DNA from: Loxodes magnus | Taxonomy: Eukaryota > Ciliophora > Karyorelictea > Loxodida > Loxodidae | Length of the DNA: 64,000 bases | Direction of reading: 5' to 3' | Assembly (NCBI GenBank): GCA_946699065.1 | Contig: CAMPDV010001095.1 | Coordinates: 62,001-126,000, forward strand | In this document: in pieces, positions 819-61,540 of the stretch | Layout: the number at the start of each line of letters is the position of its first letter | Position numbering within the stretch: the stretch's first letter is position 1 | The notes under the pieces: generated by a model | The model's database searches: none | The model's input: the letters and a program-made list of their open reading frames with translations, nothing else | What the model was told of the DNA's origin: nothing | Translations under genes and position numbers: made by a program

Positions 819-2980
819 TTATATAACTTTAACTTTAAAACTATATAAATAATAATAACTATTAATAAACGATAAAGTTAAAAGGCTTGCTAAATTAAAT
901 CTAGCGACAGGAATTAAGATAGTTAAACCTGAAAAAAAACGTGCAAGGATTTATACCAAATTCGAGTATCTATAATTGAATAAGCAAGGAGACGAATGAA
1001 AAATAACTTGATAAAGGAAATTTTAAAGAGTGTAGTTCAAATATTCGTTTAAAAGACGAATGCTAGGTATAGTTAAAATTAAGATTCTTAATATTTAACT
1101 TGATTTTCTATTATTACTCATTTACCATTTTCATTAAAGTTCTGAAAATCGGGATTTATTAATACAGTCTAAATAATTTAAAATTTATAAAAATAACTTG
1201 AATCCTTAAGTTAATAGCAAGTAAGAAAAATCTCTTTCTTACAAGATAAATGATAGAAGATAAAATTCTTCTTTATTTAATAATCTATTAGCTCATTTTT
1301 TCTCCTCTTGTAATATAAATATATTTAGATTGCTTTTCATTAAACCTTCATAATTTTTAAATCTATTTAGTTAAAAAATTATAATGAATGAATTTATTTG
1401 CCTCAGATTCACTTACAGAAGAGATTCTTCTCTATTAAGATTAGTCGATTATTTTTTTTTACATAGCTATGAGGAAATATAATGGCATTAGTTATTTATT
1501 CTTATAGTAGACATTTTACATTTATTTAGGTCTTTATATAAGTCTCTATACTGCAAGGTCTTCAATTTTAATTTTTAATTTATTTTGAGAGTTCAAATAA
1601 AGTTTCTTCCACATTTTTAACTTTAATTGAAGTTATTTACTCTTCATTACTATTACGACTATCTTAAAGTATATTCATTAACCTGACTCTTTTCTAAATC
1701 CAGCTTCTTATAAGCATTAATTTATATAATTTGCTAGTATGATATCTCAATATTTAAGAACTATTGAGAAAAGAGAAATTTTAATTGATAATTTCTTTTC
1801 TCTCTAGCTTAAAAAAATCTATTAAGGGCTTTCTTATCTTGGTAGTGTTTCTTCTTCCTTTTATTTTAACTATATCTAAGTATTTACTAACCAGTTTTCT
1901 TAACCTTGCCTTCTATGAGATATTTCTCCACTCTAAGTTAAAATTCTTTAACTTCTATCATTTTTTTTATAAAAAACACCCTTCATCCTTTTTAATTCCG
2001 CTATTCATGTTGAATAAATCAAATAGAAAGGGTGTTAAGTTAAATATTTAGAAAAAACGGAGAAGATGGAGTTAAATAAACTTAATAGGAAACAAAAAGC
2101 TTAAGCATTATGAAGATATTAATACATAAAAAAGAACAAATAAGCTATTAGTAAAATTTAGGCCTAAAACTAAAAATAATTGGAATATTTAGGGGATTCT
2201 AAAAAAGGGTAAGAATTAGTAAAGTTTGATTTAATGATATATCAAGTTTCTTGTAAGCTAGAATTATAGTTTTTTAAGCTATGAAATAAAATATTCTAAG
2301 CTAAATATAAATAAAATTAAAAAATTTTAATTTATACTCTGTTAGTAAAGCTAAATTAAATTTATGGAGGAACAAGTCTTCAAGTGTATGGATGAGTAAG
2401 TATAAAATTAAAGAATTTGATATGATATAGATATTCTTATACAAACTTTAGCTGCTTTTAAATTTGCACTAGATCACTTATATATTATATTTTTTTGCAT
2501 AATATACTAGAGTCAACGTTACTTTATTTCTAAAGCATGGTATAATTACATAGAATGAACTTTCTATGTTCTTTCAATTCAAAAAATTCATTTAATGTTC
2601 TTACTGATAATTTAGAATTAATTTGGGCTTTATATCAAAATGAAACTTCGAAACAAGTTACACGAGTTTTATACGAATACCTTTATCCATGATTTTGGAT
2701 ATTGATCTATTAGCGAAGCTCATGAGTATTTCTATGCTTCACTTCTTACTTTAAGAAAGTTTCTTTATTTTAAGAAATGAAACTATGATTTGCTTAGCAT
2801 CTAGTATTTAGACAGAGCTAGCTTTCTAAATCAAGCTTTGCATCAGATTTTAGCTTAAATATTTTCCATTTTCTGCTTATCTTACGCAATAATTGCTTCA
2901 ATAAAATTATCAATATTAGTGGCTAATTTGAATAAGCATGCTCATATATTTCATTCTAATCAACTAAAGAAGTAAGAATA
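819..2980. other. AT-rich intergenic region, one small candidate gene
   Basis: Very AT-rich. Apart from the small minus-strand frame at 1747-1986 I see no supportable gene. The right part, from about 2.3 kb, begins the older segmental duplication matched from about 20.7 kb. Confidence 0.4.
1747..1986 (-). CDS. small Gln-rich hypothetical protein
   Basis: ATG to UGA in one frame, 79 residues, with no internal UGA and many G-starting codons, which is unlike the surrounding AT-rich DNA. The middle is hydrophilic and Gln/Glu-rich (QKEEETLPRQESPQQ) and the C-terminus is mildly hydrophobic. No family is recognised and no paralogue was seen in the window. It could be a chance open frame. Confidence 0.35.
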
Positions 2981-3240
2981 TCAATATCTTATTACTGAAA
3001 TACCTAGATTATATGAAAAGCTAATTTTCCTTTCTCTTTATAGAATACTTGACCTAACAATCACCTCTATAAAATCCATTTATGAATTAAGCTTTAAAAA
3101 TAGATTTTAAAACTATATAAAACTTTATTTTTATTCAAGTATACTCAAAAGAGATTTTCTAGTCAAATCAATTAAGGCAAATAAAAGATTTTGCAACTTA
3201 TGTATAGTCAATTTTATTTAAATGAATACCTTCTACTAGA
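2981..3240 (-). pseudogene. decayed paralogue of the 89-aa gene at 21300-21569
   Basis: The minus-strand frame ending at the UGA 2981-2983 aligns with the 89-residue protein at 21300-21569. Shared features include LLF..L..L.RK.LL, EQK..FIQ, QRERK and LGI.VI. The ATG of the intact copy aligns with a non-ATG codon here and I found no replacement start, so I call it a remnant. Conservation of the reading frame between copies is the main evidence that this was protein-coding. Confidence 0.4.
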
Positions 3241-3315
3241 AGTTTTCTAATATGTTACTTTAATCACCTAAATACCATTTATTCTATAAATTATTATATA
3301 TATAAAATGGATGTC

Positions 3316-3477
3316 GCCCGTCAGAAAAATTAGTAGGTAAAATGGTGCAGAGTATACTTCATTGCGAGTAATCTCGCACTAGAAGCCACCACGGGGAAGG
3401 GTGAATAAGCTCCGTTGAGACATACCTAACTTACCCCGAGGGTTCTCTCTAGCAGTATGGAAGTTTGATTGACGGGC
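3316..3477. ncRNA. GC-rich structured RNA candidate, member A
   Basis: A 162-nt GC-rich island in very AT-rich DNA, closed exactly at its edges by an 8-bp perfect helix (GCCCGTCA at 3316-3323 with TGACGGGC at 3470-3477). An internal hairpin TGCGAG/CTCGCA spans 3363-3378. It aligns with the island at 60594-60747: both have AGGTAA, CATTGC.AGTA...GCA, and GGTTCT.TCTA near the 3' side, and both end with TTGAC plus the closing strand. Base pairs differ in a compensatory way, which indicates selection on RNA structure. Strand is unknown. It does not resemble tRNA, 5S, U-snRNA or SRP core motifs that I know. An ATG-led frame at 3309 could also be drawn through it, so coding is not excluded. Confidence 0.5.
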
Positions 3478-4120
3478 CTTCTAATTACCGACTTAATAAC
3501 TAATTCTTATTTGGATCTTATTCAAGAAGACTGAAACATTTGACTCAAGATTTAAGAATAATTTTTAATAAGAAGATTCCCCGTTTGGAGAAGCTGACAT
3601 AACTCATTGGACTTCTAGAATTTTAGCAAGAAACATGAGAACATTTTTCTTAATATTAAATATTAATATTGAAAGGGCTACTCACAATGAGGTGCTACGT
3701 GCTCTATAATAATTTTTATTTATTTATTATAATTATGTATTATAAGTTATATTGCTTAAGTATTTTGGTATATAATAGTGAAATAATAAGCTATAATAGA
3801 AGTATTCAAAGAAAGCAAGAAGAAAAGCAAAATTACATAAGGCTAAATATATCAATATGCTATTTTCTTTTGCTGATAAAATATACTGAGGTAAGTTTAG
3901 GATCATAATGAGTTAGTGAAAAATGTCTTTATTTTTCAATGTACTATAGGTTAATTAGTAGGGATATTTTATGCTTATTCATTAATAGAGATAAATTTAA
4001 GTATAAGCTATTATCTTCTTATCTTATACTAATAAATTAAGAAAGTGTATAAGTTAGTTTCTAGATTTTAAAGAGCTAAGTAAGTTTTAGATATAATAGG
4101 AGCTATTTTTAGTATAAAAA
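3478..4120. other. intergenic, diverged match to the second duplication copy
   Basis: Contains a small second GC-rich patch at about 3676-3705 with a CTCA/TGAG hairpin; a comparable patch with a GTGCTAGCAC palindrome lies near 21.94-21.98 kb. From about 3.7 kb the DNA aligns with 22.4-23.0 kb at clearly reduced identity. Several frames can be drawn but none is convincing. Confidence 0.35.
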
Positions 4121-4602
4121 ATGGATAATTTCTTGCAAAAAGTCTTTACTCAATAGGAACCATCCCAATCAAATTACGATTAGCATAACATACTCCAAGA
4201 ACCCACCTCTGATGAAGTTCGCAATATTATTTCTTTTTCGTTCCAGAATTAAACTAAACTAAGCCAGTGCCGAAGGTCTAAGAATCTTATGTCTCGAGGC
4301 CAAACCAAAGCAGAGGAAGACATAAAGTCGATTATGGGTACTTAACTTCCCCAACCTCTGATGAAGATGACCTTGTTGTTCACCTTCGAACAACTATGGC
4401 GGTTTTAAAAAATATATATAATAAGGATAGAAAGTAATGCTGGTATTGCAGATAATTTGTCATATTTTAAGATAATGCTAAAAATTCTAATAAAAATAAA
4501 AATTTGAAAGCTTTAACATATGTAGATCCATAAGCGAACTATATTGTACTCCAGAAGGTTTAATATACAGAAAAAAGATGTACACAGGGAATTAAATTTT
4601 GA
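4121..4602 (+). CDS. hypothetical protein with CxxC motif; needs an intron or has a frameshift
   Basis: The ATG at 4121 opens a hydrophilic frame (FLQKVFTQQEP) as far as PTSDE. The continuation that looks most like protein is in another frame: VPKVQESYVSRPNQ, a second PTSDE, then CWYCRQF and a UGA stop at 4600-4602. A 47-nt GT-AG intron at about 4213-4259 would join them and leave 145 codons exactly. A one-base sequencing error is the simpler alternative. Base composition is richer in G and C than the flanks. Function unknown; CWYC could bind a metal. The equivalent part of the second duplication copy does not preserve the gene. Confidence 0.45.
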
Positions 4603-6885: not shown

Positions 6886-9018
6886 TCATAGGTGCTGCAT
6901 CACTTTTTCCATTATCTTCTCAAAAGCTGTTGGTTTTTCTAGTACTATATTCATACCTGCATCTAAACAAGCTTGAATGTCACTTTGATGAGTAAAAGCT
7001 GTGTAACCTATTATTGTTCCTTTAAATCCTTGCTATCGAAGTTTGATAGTTGCGTCTCAACCGTTCATTATTGGCATTTAACAGTCCATTATTATTACTT
7101 TAATTCCAAGACAACAATTTCTATCGAGCTAGGCTTCATATAAACTAACGCACTCTTGGCCATTTTAAGCTTCTATAAACTTAATCTAAGTATTTTCAAA
7201 TAAACTTGTTAGAGTTAGCCTAATTAATGGAGTGTCATCTACTATTACAAGTTGCGGACATTTGCACTTTACTTGATGTTACATTAAAGATCCAAAATCA
7301 GGAACGACGAGTTTAGGTTCTCTATGACTTTCCAAAACAAACTACTCCTCAACAAGCTTAGCAGTAACTAAAAATGAAATTTTTGTTCCCAGGTCGGATT
7401 TTATTTTCAGTGGAGTAGCATTTCTGTTTAACTATTTTACTATAGCATTACATATTGGTAATCCGATATTTGCTGTAGGTAATTCATTCAAAGTATTTAA
7501 ATCACCAAACATTTCAAGAATTTTTTATTATCTTTCCTGATGAATCCCAACTCCTTCATCTTGTATCTTTATCTTCAAATCTACTGGAGAGTTTTCATCT
7601 CTTAAGGTCTAAGTAAATTTGATAGTTATAGTAATTTTTGAGTTCATCTAGGAGTATTTTATAGAGTTTTAAAGCAACTTAGTAATCACATTTTTTATTC
7701 TATTTCTATCTCCTTCAACTACTTAGAAGCGATCAATATTAACAAAATTAGTTTAGATCTTTATTTTATTCTCTGATATCTCTTATTCAATATTTCCTTT
7801 TACTTCTTTTAATAGCTCTTTGAACGTAAATTCTTAGTTCTAAAGTTAGAAGCTGTTGTTTTAAATATCTACAAAGTCTTTAAAATTATTAACCATCAAA
7901 AGAATTTAATTTGCTGATGAGCTAATTAGTTATAAGTTTTACTCTAGAGTTTATTTGAAGTTCTGCTTCTGATTTTATAGTGAGATGTTTATCTTATTAA
8001 TCAGATGGAAAATGTTGGTTATAGGATGTCGTAAATGATGTCCTATGGAACGAATTAGCATCATCTTGTATTTATTTTCTAGACCCAGCTGAATTTTACT
8101 TTCTTGATGCTCGTAAATCTAAGTTAGATCGTGGAAACTAATAATAGTAGCTTTAGCCTAGTTAATTTTGATGTTTTGAATGCTTACTTTGTAAAACCTA
8201 TTTTTCTAGTTTTAAATCATACTTATTATTTCGAATTTTTTGACTTCAAAATTACTTTGGTAGATATAAGAAAGCAGCTCGTCTTAAAAGAGTTCAGTTT
8301 GGGATTCTAAATATTGAAACTTGTTGATCATCTTAAAGAAATTGCCCTGAAAGAGCTTAGTGGCCTCATCGTTCATATAATGAATACTATTAGTATCAAA
8401 AATGACAATTGCGTTGTCAGTTTAAGTAGCTATGAATTTGAACTGATTAAGTTACTCCTTATAAGAGGAGTTCAACTTGAATACCTTTCTATTTATCTAA
8501 TCGTTATAATAGAAATATATGAATTCAAGTATCTGTAGGAGGCAAATAACAGACAGTTAGTAGATGGTCCAATTCTAGATCTATTGCAGATTAAGACATA
8601 AGACGATAGTTCCAGATATACTTATAAAGCAATTGAAGGCAAAGTTGTATACTATGAAGAATCCTGAAATGAACTTACAGCACTAGAACGATCAGATATT
8701 AAAATTACTGCTAGATTCGTCTTTCATCATTTCTAAACAGAAGAAAAATCCTATGAAGATCGTTACTTTTGCAAGCTAAACAGAATATTAAGGATATCTT
8801 TTAAGTATCTATATTAAAACAAATCCTGCGATCACGTTAGATAAAAGCCAAAAAAACTCCCCATCTACTTCATAGAACAGAAAGTGAGCAAACGATCAGA
8901 ACGAGAAATTGATGACGATAGCCTTGTAAAGAAAGTTCAGCAAAAATTTGTGCTTGGACACAATATGCTACTTGAAGTTTTCTTCGCTCTATTTACTCTT
9001 AAACTTATATTTGTTCAT
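6886..9018 (-). CDS. membrane hybrid histidine kinase (copy 1)
   Basis: 710 residues, ATG 9018 to UGA 6886. About six hydrophobic segments occupy residues 20-205. A PAS-like domain follows (AIVIFD...YMNDEA), then the H-box HHLRHP with the phospho-acceptor His at 327, N-box LLQNSIKYS, G1-box DEGVGI and a G2-like IGLPI. A C-terminal receiver domain has VDD (593-595), phospho-Asp in MDCQMPIMNG, GYTA and EKP. These are the residues needed for autophosphorylation and internal phosphotransfer, so it is probably a membrane sensor kinase with an unknown signal. UGA encodes Trp at residues 41, 109 and 654; the last follows MNG in the receiver. Copy 2 at 25032-27164 has exactly the same length and the same UGA codons. 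Confidence 0.92.
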
Positions 9019-20100: not shown

Positions 20101-20789
20101 ATGAATTGATTTAAAAAAATATCAACTTAATATTTCAAAATCTTAAAATAAGAAGCACTAAAGGAAAACTAGGTGGACTAATATAACGAAAATTCAGAAG
20201 AAAATTACTATATATTTTTTATTCTTGACTTTCAAACTGCATTTTTAGTAGATTCATTGGTATAACTTCAAACTTATTCACCACAGATGGTAAATATAAA
20301 ATCCTTAATTTAAAATATCTTAGTTGGATCTCTTTAATCAAAAGCTTTATTTGGATTTCTTAAAAGCTCTTGATATATATAAATTCGCTATCTTCTAATT
20401 ATCCTAACTAATAACTTTCTTTAATTTTCAACCTTAAATAAATCCCATAAGTATTAACACTAATGTGATGTAATTAGTGGAAATTTTCAAAGAATTTTCA
20501 TTAAGCTATTAGAAAATTGAGATGAACTTAGAAATATTTTAAAGGCTAAAATACTTTCTGATACTTTCCTAAAATAGATTGATATCAAAATTTATTCTCT
20601 CTATAAGAATAAAATTTACTTTTAAAATTAATTTGGAAGAAAATCTCAGATAATTAAGCATTTTCTTTATTTAAAAGGAAAGAGGATTTCTAATATAATA
20701 TTAAATCTCCTTTTTTTATATTTTTTTGATCGCAAATTTGGTACCTTGCTCAACTATAACTCCTGATATACAGTCTTTAAGCATTAACG
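17140..20789. other. gene-poor AT-rich stretch
   Basis: No supportable gene. Homopolymer-rich and of uniformly low complexity. It contains one short tandem repeat at 18240. Confidence 0.4.
18240..18268. repeat. short tandem repeat, three units of TGCGAAAT
   Basis: Three head-to-tail 9-base units (GCGAAATTG) in otherwise unstructured AT-rich DNA. Function unknown. Confidence 0.6.
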
Positions 20790-20995
20790 ATTTCCGGTGA
20801 TATGTGCAGGGATAGGTACTTGATATTTGAATATCTGCAATTCAGGGAGCTCTATCGCTATGGACTGCCTGTCATCAAGCCACCACTGATGGTAAACCGG
20901 ATAATTCAATTGAACTTTGAATCAGTATGTTACCCTCATGTTAGTGACCTGTATCTAAGTGTAGACGAAACACTACTTCAGTAGACGCCAAATTT
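20790..20995. other. GC-rich island, coding or RNA, undecided
   Basis: About 200 bases with far higher GC than the flanks. The plus strand has a 60-codon frame free of UAA, UAG and UGA. The minus strand has a frame with one UGA and plausible protein (including LDDRQSIAIELP). Short hairpins are present: TCCGGT/ACCGGA, GATATT/AATATC and CATCA/TGATG. It does not clearly match the two related structured islands. I cannot choose between a gene fragment and a structured RNA. Confidence 0.3.
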
Positions 20996-21299
20996 AAATT
21001 ATTAGATCAATATTTTACAAGTCCTACATAGTAGATTTTAATATCCTCTTTTTCCATAACTTAAAATCTCCATTTACCTACTGATAAACTTTTCGATTGC
21101 TTTTTATATCATCCTGATATGCTTCAACAGCATTTCTCTAACTTAAACTAAAACTTCCGATCTTTATTTTTGAGAGAAAAAAACAAAAATCTTTTGTAAT
21201 TTCTTTCTTCTTGCTTTTATAGATAATCAGTGTGCAATAAAATTGTCAGTACTATTGCTAATTTGAATAAACATGCTCATATATTCATTCTAATCTGTT

Positions 21300-21569
21300 T
21301 CATTAGTAAAAAATTCGTTATATTATTACTAATATACCTAAACTAAGCAAAGCTCTATCTTTCCTTTCTCTTTAAAAATTTGAACCTAGCAATAACCTCT
21401 ATTAAATCCCTTTAGTATTCTATTTGAATATTTGGTTTGAAATCTAGATAAAAATGCATTTTTATTCAATTACACCTAACAACAATTTTCTAGCCAATTC
21501 ATTTAAGTCAAATAAAAGCTTTCTAGCGTCTTCTTAGCGAATTATATTGAAATGATTACTTTCTTCCAT
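21300..21569 (-). CDS. 89-aa hypothetical protein (intact duplication copy)
   Basis: ATG to UGA, 89 residues, no internal UGA, begins MEESNHFNIIRQED. The core KLLFDLNELARKLLLG is amphipathic and helix-like, followed by EQK.IFIQ and QRERK. The reading frame is conserved with 2981-3240 despite heavy nucleotide divergence, which supports coding. No family recognised. Downstream on the minus strand the frame stays readable through 20.8 kb if the UGA is Trp, so a longer protein is possible. Confidence 0.5.
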
Positions 21570-21671
21570 ACACTTTCTATTGTATTTCTTTCATTACCTT
21601 CATTCAATTTATTATATAATATGGTTAGGTATTATTCTAAGTATATTTTATTATATAATTTATTTTAAATA

Positions 21672-21955
21672 GGGAGGAGAAATCCTCTCACTATGATTGA
21701 AAGAAACTCAGTAAATAGGAAGTACTCTGTGTAAAGACATGAACAAGAATCTTGGCTGGAGCAAAGTATATCAAGACCGAGGAATCAAGTAACAATATAT
21801 TGAACGATGCCTGAGATTAAGGTCTCTTTAGAGAAGCACTCTGACACTGGCCCTATAAGAGAAAAGAATTTCCAAGGGATGATAGCACAGGGAAGAATGT
21901 ATCATAATACACTTTTAAACTTTAAAAAGCTTTAATTAAAGAGCTGCGGGCTATC
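21672..21955. ncRNA. GC-rich island at the position equivalent to member A
   Basis: A GC-rich stretch in the second duplication copy at the place where the first has the 3316-3477 island. It opens with a perfect 7-bp hairpin with a GAAA tetraloop (GGGAGGA/TCCTCTC with one G-U). It contains AAGGTCTCTTT, distantly like the GGTTCT.TCTA box, and a CTTGG/CCAAG pairing. Sequence similarity to the other two islands is weak. A frame from ATG 21694 (MIERNSVNRKY) also looks protein-like, so coding is a serious alternative. Confidence 0.3.
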
Positions 21956-24330
21956 GTAGTGCTAGCACTCTATAATCTTAGTTTTATTCGTGTTATATTA
22001 CTTAATACTAGTTATAGTCTCATTTTATCATTATCATCTAATTCTGATTGATAAAAAAAGGAGATATAATAGTACAGGGTATTCTATATCCTTAGTATTT
22101 AAACATAAAGATAGGTAAGAAATTCTCTAGTAGCTTTTAATCCTTATTACTAGAATTACTCTCCATCCTTTGAACATAAGTACATATCAGTAGTTATAAA
22201 TATTAATATCATCTATACCTAAATCTTTATACTCTCTCATTAATAGATAGAGAGAAGTTTTAATTAACCAAATGTTTTAGAAGAAGCCAATGGTTTGAAA
22301 ATTGGATTGCTAATTAAAGTTTAAATTCGTAGGCTTGAAAATAATATCCGAATGTATGAAGTAAAGAAAAATAGAAGATTATAGTCAAGTATTTATATAC
22401 TAAAGTGATGAAGTATTTTGGTATATAGTAGTGAAATAAGAAACTTCCAAATAAAGTGAGGAGAAAATTAAATTTTATTTAAGGAGATGAAAAAGGAACT
22501 TTCATCAGATTTAAGTAAAGCTAAATAATGAATAAATCAATAAAATCAGATACTATCAAATATCAAACGTTCTATCAGGTTTTATTGAGCTTTAACTATT
22601 TTTTCATCATTTTTAAAGTGAAAAAAGATCAAAAACTAAATCAAAATCAATAGAATTGGCTAAAAACGAAAAAGCTTATAAAAGTTAAAGGCTTTTTAAG
22701 TTAACAAAATACATTGAGCTAAATATAGGGAACATACTAGTTCCTTTTGGTGATAAAAATATATTCAGGTAAGTTTTAGAATCATTATGAATTAGTAAAA
22801 AATATCATATATAAGGAAGAAAATTAGCAAAGTATTTACTTTTCAGCTTATTACAAATTAGCTAATTTGGAATATTTTATCATTATACATTAAAGAAGTC
22901 AACTCTAGTATTAATATATATCTACTTTTCTTTTTGCTATAAATTAAGAAAATGTATTATTAACTTCTAAAATTAAAAGAGCTAAACAAATTTTAGATAT
23001 AAAAAGAGAAAGATTGAGTCTAAATGATTCAAAAATGCATAAGCATATGCAATAAAGTAAAATACTTTAGAAATCTGAAGCTGAATTAAATTGATCTAAG
23101 TTAAGTCATTAAAAAAATGATTTAATAACAAAAAATTCTAGCTGAATGAGAAAAATTATAATAAGAGGAAGAGTAAATATATTAGGCTAGCTACTAAAGC
23201 AGTTATAAAAATCTTAGCTGTTGGGAATTTTTTAAGCGAATTATGTGAAAATTGCTTCTAATATATTAATGATATAATCTTTTAGATGTATTAATAATAT
23301 AAAGTTCTAATATATCTTCATTTTTAGTCTAAAGAAGATAGCTTTCATAAACTAAATCTTATAAAGAAGAGTTAAGGTGTAGAATTCTTATTAATGAAGC
23401 TGAAATATGCTTTTATAAATAGAAGCTACAGCTTTAAGATTAGGATAAGCTTGCTTAAAATAGAAAAGCAGACTATTTCTCCTTTATCTAGTTAAAATTA
23501 TAAATATCATTTCTATAAAGTATCAGAGCGCTTGAAAATAGTCGATTTTAATTTTACATATGATTGATTTTTCCATTTTGCTTAGATCCTTTATTAAATA
23601 AAGGCAATGTAACATAGGAGTAAAACTATAAAACATCAATAAATTTTATTATGAACTATCCCTATGATTTCATATCATTTTCTTTATTTCATTCTTTTTA
23701 GTTTTTTTAAAACTCTTTCATAAATGAACTCAAATTCATATTAAAGCATGAAGAAAACCTTATTTATCAATTTTATGCCTGATCTTTGTAAAACTTATTA
23801 ATATCCCTTTATAGCCTGGGGCTTCATGTCATAATTAAGAAAGTTTATTTATCCATACTTTTGAGTTCTTCTCAAATAGTAAAATAAGTTGTGATTATAA
23901 AAAATCCTTTCTTTGCTTTCAATTTTTTTTGTGAAGCATTATTTAACTATAGAAAAATTAGAAGTTACTATATCTAATTTATAATTGCTTACTTATCTAG
24001 TTAAAACTTTAACAATATATGCATCTCTTTAATGATAGCAATGGACATTAATCCTTGTTTTTACATCTTAAACCTCTCATCTACTAGTTATTAAATTCCT
24101 TACTTTTACCTAATTTCATTTATGAGAGTTTTCGTTTTTCTTATTTATGAATTTTTCTTTTTTCTTCAGAATCATTTTTGTTCCTCTAAGATAAAATAAA
24201 AAGGTACAAGCAGCTTCTATTAGTTTATTATTTACTTATATTCTTTAACATTGTCAATTAAAATCATTTCATAGACTAGCTTCCTTAGGTTTACTATAAA
24301 AGCAAGCATAGTAATGCGTTTTTCTGAATT
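21956..24330. other. AT-rich, old duplication, no clear gene
   Basis: Diverged counterpart of 3.5-6.1 kb. The gene seen at 4121-4602 has no preserved equivalent here. A GTGCTAGCAC palindrome lies at about 21.96 kb. Confidence 0.4.
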
Positions 24331-25031: not shown

Positions 25032-27164
25032 TCATAGGTGCTGCATCACTTTTTCCATTATCTTCTCAAAAGCTGTTGGCTTTTCTAGTACTATATTCAT
25101 GCCCGCATCTAAACAAGCTTGAATATCACTTTGATGAGTAAAAGCTGTGTAACCTATTATTGTTCCTTTAAATCCTTGCTATCGAAGTTTGATAGTTGCG
25201 TCTCAACCGTTCATTATTGGCATTTAACAGTCCATTATTATTACTTTAATTCCAAGACAACAATTTCTATCGAGCTAGGCTTCATATAAACTAACGCACT
25301 CTTGGCCATTTTAAGCTTCTATAAACTTAATCTAAGTATTTTCAAATAAACTTGCTAGAGTTAGCCTAATTAATGGAGTGTCATCTACTATTACAAGTTG
25401 CGGACATTTGCACTTTACTTGATGTTACATTAAAGATCCAAAATCAGGAACGACGAGTTTAGGTTCTCTATGACTTTCCAAAACAAACTACTCCTCAACA
25501 AGCTTAGCAGTAACTAAAAATGAAATTTTTGTTCCCATGTCGGATTTTATTTTCAGTGGAGTAGCATTTCTGTTTAACTATTTTACTATAGCATTACATA
25601 TTGGTAATCCGATATTTGCTGTAGGTAATTCATTCAAAGTATTTAAATCACCAAACATTTCAAGAATTTTTTATTATCTTTCCTGATGAATCCCAACTCC
25701 TTCATCTTGTATCTTTATCTTCAAATCTACTGGAGAGTTTTCATCTCTTAAGGTCTAAGTAAATTTGATAGTTATAGTAATTTTTGAGTTCATCTAGGAG
25801 TATTTTATAGAGTTTTAAAGCAACTTAGTAATCACATTTTTTATTCTATTTCTATCTCCTTCAACTACTTAGAAGCGATCAATATTAACAAAATTAGTTT
25901 AGATTTTTATTTTATTCTCTGATATCTCTTACTTAATATTTCCTTTTACTTCTTTTAATAGCTCTTTGAACGTAAATTCTTAGTTCTAAAGTTAGAAGCT
26001 GTTGTTTTAAATATCTACAAAGTCTTTAAAATTATTAACCATCAAAAGAATTTAATTTGCTGATGAGCTAATTAGTTATAAGTTTTACTCTAGAGTTTAT
26101 TTGAAGTTTTGTATCTGATTTTATAGTGAGATGTTTATCTTATTAATCAGATGGAAAATGTTGGTTATAGGATGTCGTAAATGATGTCCTATGGAACGAA
26201 TTAGCATCATCTTATATTTATTTTCTAGATCCAGCTGAATTTTACTCTCCTGATGCTCGTAAATCTGAGTTAAGTCATGGAAACTAATAATAGTAGCTTT
26301 AGCCTAGTTAAGTTTGATATTCTAAATGCTTACTTTGTAAAACCTATTTTTCTAGTTTTAAATCATACTTATTATTTCGAATTTTTTGACTTCAAAATTA
26401 CTTTGGTAGATATAAGAAAATAGATCATCTTAAAAGAGTTCAGTTTGGGATTCTAAATATTGAAACTTGTTGATCATCTTAAAGAAATTGCCTTGAAAGA
26501 GCTTAGTGGCCTCATCGTTCATATAATGAATACTTTTAGTATCAAAAATGACTAATGCGTTATCTGTCTAAGTAGCTATGAACTTGAACTGATTAAGTTA
26601 CTCCTTATAAGAGGAGTTCAGGTTGAATAGCTTTCTATTTATCTAATCGTTATAATAGAAAAATATGAATTCAAGTATCTATAGGAGACATATAACAGAT
26701 AGTTAGTAGATAGATCAGTCCTGGAATTATTACAGGTTAAGGCATAAGAAGATAGTTCCAACTATACTTATAAAGCAATTGAAAGCAAAGTTGTATACTA
26801 TGAAGAAGCCTGAAATAAACTTACAGCACTGAAACGATCAGATATTAAAGCAGCTACTCATTTCTTCTTTCATCATTTCTAAACAAAAGAAAAACCCAAT
26901 AAAGATAGTCGTTTTTGCAAGCTATACAGAGTATTATGGATATCTATAAAGTATACGAAGTAAAAAATATCCTGCGATCACATTCGAAAGAAGCCAAAAA
27001 AACTCCCCGTCGATTTTAAATAAGAGCCAGTGAACGAACGATCAAAAAGAGAAGTTAATGATGATCGCCTTATAAAGCAAACTCAGTAGAAATTTGTGCT
27101 TGGACACAATATGCTACTTGAAATTTTCTTCCCTCAATTTACTCTTAAACTTATATTTGTTCAT
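25032..27164 (-). CDS. membrane hybrid histidine kinase (copy 2)
   Basis: 710 residues, the same length as copy 1, with the same domain order: membrane segments, PAS-like region, HHLRHP H-box, ATPase boxes and receiver. All three UGA-Trp codons are kept (for example 25203-25205 in the receiver). The 3' part, which encodes kinase and receiver, is almost identical to copy 1; the 5' part, which encodes the membrane region, carries many more differences, consistent with a conversion tract. Both copies therefore look functional. Divergence in the membrane sensor half may mean different inputs, which is inference. Confidence 0.92.
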
Positions 27165-59882: not shown

Positions 59883-60593
59883 TAATATGAAATAGCTTTA
59901 GAAATAATAAAAACAGCAATGGTTACTAATAAGCAAGAGCCATAAATCCTTCATTTAAAGTATTAAGTCTTCAGAAACTAAATCAATAGCTAATCTAGTA
60001 AATAGAGGAAAGCCATTCTAATAGCTGAACAAGTATTAAGTTAGATAGTATTTAACGATGATAGTTAAAGGCCTAAAGAGATATATAGCTGTATACCGTT
60101 TTAAAGGATATATTTATCTTTAATATTTAGATTGATTTCTATAAAAGATGACTATATAATCTCCACTACTACTTTGGTATTAACCTCTTTTAAAATACTT
60201 AAATACTAGAGCTAATAAATACTTATAAAAGTAACTTAAATCACCTAAATTAATGCTTGAGAAACGAATAACTAAGTAGACAAAAAATCCCTTAATAGAT
60301 ATACTTGCTATTGTTTTCTTTCATTTATGAAATCTAAACTTAATTTGTTAGATTTGATTCCAACTTTTAAAGCTGTAAAACTAGTCTCATAGTATAAGTA
60401 AAAATAGCTATAAAAAGAAATGATTTACATAAGTGTATAGAAGTAGTTCTGTATAGTTATATTAATTACTTTAAACCCTTTAATTTATTTTAGTGTTATC
60501 AGATTATTTATCATTTTAAGAAATTAAGCAAATAAATTGAATAGTAATAGTTAGTTATGTTCTTGCTATATAATTCATTTATGGATTCTGGTT
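59883..60593. other. AT-rich intergenic region
   Basis: Upstream of array gene 4; no supportable feature. Confidence 0.4.
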
Positions 60594-60747
60594 TCTAGTC
60601 GACATGTTAGGTAATCCAATGCAGTCATTTCTGCATTGCAAGTACTATTGCAATAGATGACACTACAAGCAAGTAAGGTAGGATCCATTGTGTGATAAGC
60701 CTTACTTGTTTGAAGGTTCTTTCTATTGGTACGAGAGGTTGACTAGA
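60594..60747. ncRNA. GC-rich structured RNA candidate, member C
   Basis: A 154-nt island closed by a 10-bp helix with one G-U pair (TCTAGTCGAC at 60594-60603 with GTTGACTAGA at 60738-60747). Internal perfect hairpins: CAATGCAG/CTGCATTG (60617-60638), alternatively TTGCAA/TTGCAA, and CAAGTAAGG/CCTTACTTG (60670-60708). It shares sequence boxes and order with 3316-3477. In the closing helix CCC/GGG of that member is CTA/TAG here, and in the inner hairpin a G-C pair is A-T: compensatory changes. Strand unknown. Confidence 0.5.
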
Positions 60748-60790
60748 GGGAAATGAAATCCAGATCTCAGAGTTATCCTGATTTTACATG

Positions 60791-61540
60791 TCACTATTAT
60801 TAGGAATTAGAAAACAACAAAGACATGACTGAGATCAAAAACAATTATTACTTAGAAGAATTTAACCTAATTGAGTTATTCTACGCAAATATTGGAATTT
60901 TCTCTAACCTCTTCTAATTCCAGCCTTTGGAAGAATTACAAGAATTTGAAGAGTGAAGGTAATCAATTTTGATTATAAAAAAGGAGAGAAGAAGATAAGA
61001 ATCAAAGAGACCAGATGAAGCTAGAAACATTTTTAGCCTATTATTAATAATTAAATTTGGTTTCTTTATTTTTTCGTGGTGAACCAAACAATGGTGGTAC
61101 CAGGTTAATTTAATTTATTTATATCGAAAAAAAATTTAAAACTTCTTTAGATATAAAGCTGGGAAGATTTAACTTCCAAGTTATTTTTGGTGTAAGAATT
61201 TAACAATCTCTGCTAGTTCCTTTATCCTTTCCTTCTTAATTTACAGCTCTTTACTCTTCACTGTTATTTCCATAGACTTATATTATTTAAGATTTGATCC
61301 AACTCTACACTAAATCTGAGAATTTTGAATTGTTAAAGATTTAAGATGCTTGCTATCTATCTCTTTACAGATGGTAAGGTAAAATACATTAAAATTCCTC
61401 TATTTATTTACCTTAAAAGTAAGCTTAATGGGTGCTTTCTAATCTAAATACTCAATTCTTTTCCTTTTCCTTATCTCTTTTAAAGATCCTATTTGAGGTT
61501 TCTTATATATGCCTATCTTCGAGGTTATTACCTCTTCCAT
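60791..61540 (-). CDS. hypothetical protein of 249 aa
   Basis: ATG to UGA with no internal UGA over 249 codons. The N-terminal half reads well: SLKEIRKRKRIEYL, KLTFKVNKQRNFNVFYL, then a Lys/Glu-rich helical stretch. It loosely resembles the array-gene N-terminus (TLTEIRKKQKSKQNYTVRIEKVG), which may be chance. The C-terminal half is less convincing, and an antisense frame at 60753-60956 (MKSRSQSYPDF to LQEFEE) is rich in G-starting codons, so the real 3' end may lie earlier. Function unknown. Confidence 0.45.

Follow-up and report, generated by a model that had tools for sequence, protein, structure and literature searches.

The stretch analysed here, which we call the window, comprises 64,000 nucleotides of a genome searched as 705.7 Mb in 7843 contigs and most likely identical with the macronuclear assembly of the karyorelict ciliate Loxodes magnus. 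Passages of PMC11441545 on this species describe a MAC assembly of 706 Mbp with about 2,700 RVT_1 copies, state a paucity of DNA-transposase domains, report monoallelic insertion polymorphisms and leave most of the interspersed repeats unclassified. Our identification draws on genome size, RVT_1 abundance and genetic code. Under table 11 the window is without long frames. As stop codons are read as sense in this genome, the scarcity of table-11 frames does not amount to a scarcity of genes; reverse transcriptase (RT) domains score well despite some 15-21 in-frame TAA, TAG and TGA codons each (150 scored matches listed), and one RT domain translated with table 27, the karyorelict code, matches RVT_1 with an E-value of 4.7e-36. 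A domain search with table 27 placed two histidine-kinase domain frames on the minus strand of the window, at 7060-8691 and 25206-26714; in both frames HATPase_c is above its cut-off, while HisKA and Response_reg are weaker and below theirs. The two frames sit on a duplication with an offset of about 18 kb. The segment 33960-59300 holds four direct copies at spacings of 8057, 7708 and 7672 bases, three of them with a nearly perfect array of the 9-base unit CATTTTGAG (103, 64 and 60 units), and 20739-21000 is a GC-rich island with up to 46% G+C per 120-base window, further to the two that are the subject of this study.

Each of these two islands is closed by a long helix, P1. At the first, the 5' strand GCCCGTCA (3316-3323, plus strand) pairs perfectly with the 3' strand TGACGGGC, read from the sequence at 3470-3477 (plus strand), and at the second CTAGTCGAC (60595-60603) pairs with GTTGACTAG (60738-60746) in nine pairs, one of them G-U. 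Compared with dinucleotide shuffles, the fold of 3310-3482 has a z of -2.44, with 3 of 200 shuffles equally good, and that of 60590-60752 a z of -5.97, with none of 200 equally good. The islands can be aligned with each other and have an identical order of boxes; pairing and alignment thus bear out the first-pass annotation, which had described boxes in one order and long closing helices at both places. The structured head, as we call the folded part, spans 3308-3488 (plus strand) at the first island, where covariance model R1 gives 168.1 bits over positions 1-181 and the family consensus folds accordingly, and 60582-60762 (plus strand) at the second, with 186.7 bits and with folds of both the single copy and the consensus; R1 was built including both window copies, and these two scores are matches by construction. 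Both islands are parts of longer repeated units, which run to about 3730 and 61120.

The first unit, family 1, is about 430 bp long, and the island is its first 170-180 nt or so. A full-length copy lies at 3300-3730 (plus strand), the block conserved in an alignment of 21 copies, and it consists of a ATATAAAATGG start, the structured head, a body, a tail resembling that of LINE class 1, and a TTTATTTATTTATT end. In a genome search with the island, all 40 scored places matched at 92-100% (2525 first-look candidates). Between about 3300 and 3727 the window copy resembles the 20 of these 40 places that were aligned with it; outside, similarity drops to background level. The consensus of these 21 sequences is 93.4% identical to window 3300-3735. 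An exact 27-base core of the family occurs 848 times genome-wide, as against 0 in the reversed control. Among the 100 core places listed, a single tandem array on contig C45 (1095600-1152379) accounts for 41, mostly 1.41-1.46 kb apart, and with so many cores together the copy number of the family is not its number of insertions; the array itself appears as a family-1 unit caught in a satellite. The window also contains a paralogous stretch without the family-1 unit: the flank 2899-3289 resembles 21235-21619 (74%), the right flank 3726-3792 aligns to 22378-22445 (79%), and where family 1 would sit there are about 760 bases of other DNA, including a third family described below.

Family 2 has a longer unit of about 550 bp, with a head of the same kind, a body unrelated to that of family 1 and a different tail. 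Its copy at 60565-61120 (plus strand) was delimited by aligning the window copy with 29 genomic copies, taken from 30 loci of which one (L030) was the window copy itself and was left out; these 30 sequences resemble one another between about 60565 and 61120, and their consensus is 90.8% identical to window 60567-61123. The genome search with the second island gave matches at 85-100% in all 40 scored places, out of 1013 first-look candidates.

Both tails are shared with LINEs. The tail of family 1, at 3660-3730 (plus strand), consists of an AT-rich lead-in, a GC hairpin that is somewhat decayed in the window copy, and TTTATTTATTTATT; its consensus shows 91.5% identity, over 59 bp, to the 3' end of a class-1 LINE at locus L109, whose RT domain (RVT_1 E 4.7e-36, table 27) lies about 1.3 kb upstream of the match. 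The tail of family 2, at 61020-61115 (plus strand), matches L110 at 87% over 84 bp. L110 is a 601-base piece lying 1.05-1.65 kb past a same-strand RVT_1 match, which places the tail about 1.4 kb downstream of it; this comparison joins two separate pieces, the RT match and L110, with the intervening DNA outside it, and the case from sequence that the family-2 tail belongs to a second LINE class is good but not closed. By eye, the families end in TTTA- or TTAA-like repeats whose length varies among copies. Target-site duplications were sought by comparing the words shared by the two flanks of a copy with those of mismatched flanks, and none emerged for family 1 (6.9 bases in the same copy against 7.5 mismatched, 16 copies) or family 2 (6.95 against 7.03, 20 copies). 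With truncated tails and repeated right flanks dropped, 16 of 21 and 20 of 30 copies were kept, and the test is a weak one with flanks of about 75% A+T and tails of TTTA-like repeats.

The class-1 LINE tail terminates other non-autonomous families as well. One of them, the third family, has a different head and lies at 21668-21990 (plus strand), with a fixed 5' end in 20 aligned copies including that of the window; its tail match lies at 21938-21988 (78.8%). Another LINE-tailed family, type B, is represented by a partial copy at 4182-4421 on the minus strand, assigned by eye against the type-B consensus. To the eye, a body module, TTCATCA..GG..GGGGAA..GTACCC, seems to be common to types A and B. 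An initial idea that the two types represent the LINE itself was given up, since the 5' end is fixed in both consensuses and inspection by eye revealed no RT. Heads, bodies and tails may have been swapped as modules among the LINE-tailed families.

Some features of the surroundings of the copies deserve description. Three of the 21 family-1 copies (L010, L011 and L021) adjoin, by eye, the tail of another copy, and at L109 the frame of another element (MASKKQQN...), which carries a CYVCNKQHQWKYC knuckle, opens no more than about 100 bases beyond the LINE 3' end; we read this pattern as a habit of head-to-tail insertion. Several LINEs start with ATATAAAATGG or close to it, as family 1 does (L042, L043, L096-L098, L102 and L103), and those at L095 and L109 start near it; at L069, L094 and L056 the ATGG or the exact lead-in is not kept. 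This resemblance may mean that family 1 opens with LINE-like bases, the elements having common 5' ends, or it may reflect a target preference.

Given the perfect inverted repeat 3316-3323/3470-3477 in an AT-rich genome, it could be argued that the closing helix represents the terminal inverted repeats of a MITE-like DNA transposon. We regard this as hardly credible. The conserved unit extends about 250-370 bp beyond the inverted repeat, and both the alignment and the paralogous stretch place the repeat inside the unit and not at its termini, which refutes the proposal on boundaries; moreover, the tails match LINE 3' ends, and DNA-transposase domains are scarce in this genome according to the passages of PMC11441545 cited above.

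The bodies and tails of families 1 and 2 gave no further significant match when the consensuses were compared, whereas the head consensuses, both of which begin with TAAAATGGAT, are identical at 102 of 141 positions (E 2e-16). Folded separately, the two family consensuses arrive at one plan: P1, P2, the hairpins P3 and P4 and a long arm, P5, with P2-P5 meeting in a four-way junction without unpaired linkers in both folds. There are 56 pairs in the fold of family 1 and 67 in that of family 2, 44 of them common to both. Between the families the core boxes are 83% identical (49/59), against 44% for the 5' strand of P1 (8/18), 63% for its 3' strand (10/16) and 50% for the distal P5 arm (23/46); pairing is largely kept in P1 and the distal P5 arm despite this low identity. 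The heads have z values of -2.35 and -5.83 relative to shuffles and the body segments 0.25, -0.55 and -3.29, the last belonging to segment 2b, which is structured too. More subfamilies of the head exist. The pattern TAGATGCCACCACY, whose final letter excludes the next base of the main families, occurs at 38 places as against 0 in the control, and model R1 finds the head in all 30 of these places that were fetched, at 52-183 bits; the subfamilies were sampled by this sequence-pattern search. Homologues of the islands are therefore present genome-wide with helices largely kept, as SINE-like copies in several subfamilies.

The first-pass annotation had also reported that helix positions covary, and changes of that kind were found by more than one route. 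When the 56 family-1 pairs are read in family 2, 34 are the same, 5 are changed on one side, 9 on both sides, 5 are broken and 3 gapped, such that 48 of 56 stay standard. Under a null model that kept the base-by-base substitution spectrum and moved the positions, the mean number of double changes was 2.55 and that of broken pairs 18.2, and for both measures 0 of 2000 replicates were as extreme as the observed 9 and 5. The reverse test, with the family-2 fold read in family 1 (36 same, 6 one-side, 11 both-side, 10 broken, 4 gapped), gave 11 double changes where the null mean was 3.23 (0/2000); most of the pairs on which the two tests draw are the same. RNAalifold on a 26-row alignment predicted 37 pairs, in 10 of which at least one sequence is changed on both sides with the pair kept. 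In a further alignment of 16 diverse rows, picked by hand from L021, L033, L049 and the pattern loci, 79.5% of the cells are standard under the named fold as against 33-45% when the fold is slid, and the covariation score and the number of double-change cells are above those of all 500 shuffles. Two of the five measures on these copies are unimpressive, with 24 pairs showing a double change against 18.4 (11/500 shuffles) and 63 further pair types against 60.4 (127/500). The covariation evidence comes mainly from the two families. A protein-coding explanation of the head is ruled out by the substitutions between the consensuses, which are flat over codon positions (17/21/20); conservation of a reading frame, the outcome against which the annotation was to be checked, was not seen.

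The same double changes could in principle arise at the DNA level, through palindrome correction by template switching or through CpG decay on both arms, rather than by selection on an RNA. Both strands do fold well, and one P4 pair illustrates how decay can intervene. A genome-wide pattern search found 103 places with both of its letters changed, and among about 100 listed, by eye, about 33 are T-A, a form that loss of CpG in the two arms can produce, one is G-U, and the rest, about two thirds, are unpaired (A-A, T-T, A-C, G-A). The variation of this pair is mostly decay and not compensation, and CpG decay is a confounder here. Yet the double changes between the families are spread over several helices nested in the junction, with transversions among them (columns 74/148, C-G to A-T; columns 24/160, A-T to C-G), the core boxes are kept as sequence (49/59), and where only one side is changed the plus strand has G-U more often than A-C (8 against 2, small numbers summed over two overlapping cross-tests). 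Taken together, these points make a DNA-level origin of the double changes unlikely, and selection on a folded RNA is the reading that we carry forward.

What kind of genetic entity carries this fold? That the islands are stand-alone structural RNA genes, as the annotation proposed from their GC content, agrees with the real structure and compensatory changes and with the lack of an Rfam family, but it is contradicted by the hundreds of copies, by the fixed longer units with LINE-like tails and by the paralogous stretch without the family-1 unit, and we consider it highly improbable; each island instead forms the 5' part of a repeat unit of high copy number, one with a LINE-like tail. Of the "undescribed structured RNA family" first proposed, the structure and its compensatory changes thus stand, and the status as stand-alone RNA genes does not. 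The most parsimonious interpretation, which we hold with considerable confidence, is that each island constitutes the 5' module of one of two SINE-like, non-autonomous families mobilised by LINEs, which have a structurally conserved head in common. The elements are short (about 430 and 550 bp), dispersed, multi-copy and without coding capacity, each has its 3' end in common with a partner LINE (that at L109 for family 1, probably that at L110 for family 2), and by eye the 3' end is a simple repeat. We envision that the element RNA would be copied by the reverse transcriptase of a LINE, recruited via the 3' tail, and that the folded head would act as RNA, where it probably protects the transcript and docks on a host factor or the ribosome, or else carries the promoter. 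With such a role at the RNA level, selection on the mobile source copies would keep the pairing while the sequence drifts.

SINE heads are usually traced to descent from tRNA, 7SL or 5S RNA. The annotation had recognised no RNA family in the islands, and in this it was right: no Rfam covariance model reached its gathering score in the window, and, with E-values allowed up to 10, weak hits only were obtained for the two islands and five relatives, far below the family cut-offs, with no tRNA, 7SL or 5S family among them. For the first island these hits were rli37 and snoR64a. The second had nine, the best being mir-26, whose E-values were 0.038 on one strand and 0.06 on the other, with 19.9 bits where the family cut-off is 57; in L033, a relative from family 2, mir-26 came up again in either orientation (E 0.45 and 7.7). 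The mir-26 match falls on the distal hairpin of P5 and was read as a generic hairpin match. No tRNAs were called in the window, and ARAGORN at relaxed thresholds returned only implausible ones. Scoring with the pol III A- and B-box consensus gave best hits at non-matching places in the two heads, and no strong site that both have in common.

A tRNA-, 5S- or 7SL-derived head diverged beyond recognition would have the cloverleaf-like topology of the four-way junction in its favour, together with a weak A-box-like site, TAGGTAATCYGG, that matches the consensus at 10 of 12 positions in family 1, and GGTTCTCTC, kept in both consensuses. Set against these are the Rfam results given above (nothing at gathering score, otherwise hits that are weak and generic), the lack of any tRNA call in the window, a length of 170-180 nt that includes a long closing helix, and a B-box-like site of only 7/11, and we find such a descent rather doubtful. 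It can be hypothesized, as a tentative proposal to which we give slightly more credit while still holding it below an even chance, that the Loxodes head adds a fourth type to the known SINE heads. Its RNA domain would stem from a host RNA absent from the catalogues, or would be an invention of the elements themselves; selection for mobility would maintain it, it would be employed alongside more than one LINE partner, and the covariation between the families would reveal a functional RNP-binding fold. What sets the present case apart is that two families with different LINE tails have one head, with no match to tRNA, 7SL or 5S RNA and with structure-preserving change, and the RNA-level role of a SINE head becomes testable by covariation across subfamilies. 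LINE-partnered SINE-like families are also added to a karyorelict ciliate, in whose somatic nucleus repeats remain.

As a four-way junction with few or no linkers, the Loxodes head is in the company of tRNA, U1 snRNA and the hairpin ribozyme; it resembles these RNAs in the junction and differs in having no Rfam match. SINEs with LINE-derived 3' tails form the known LINE/SINE pairs. Unlike in those pairs, the head in Loxodes is not recognisably tRNA, 5S or 7SL, but the elements are likewise short, non-coding and high in copy number, with a head-body-tail layout and a 3' tail in common with a LINE, and here, too, one head is found in two families with different LINE tails. For the partners, the Loxodes magnus LINE families rnd-1_family-27 and -19 of PMC11441545 are possible candidates; in this genome the two tails sit at the 3' termini of RVT_1-bearing elements or close to them. 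The main text of that paper contains no word starting with 'sine'. Among ciliates, passages of PMC5405496 annotate as putative SINEs a set of repeated inserts without protein-coding potential in Paramecium tetraurelia. Those passages describe no structured head such as that of the Loxodes elements, but the two cases are alike in that a ciliate has non-autonomous class I elements beside its LINEs.
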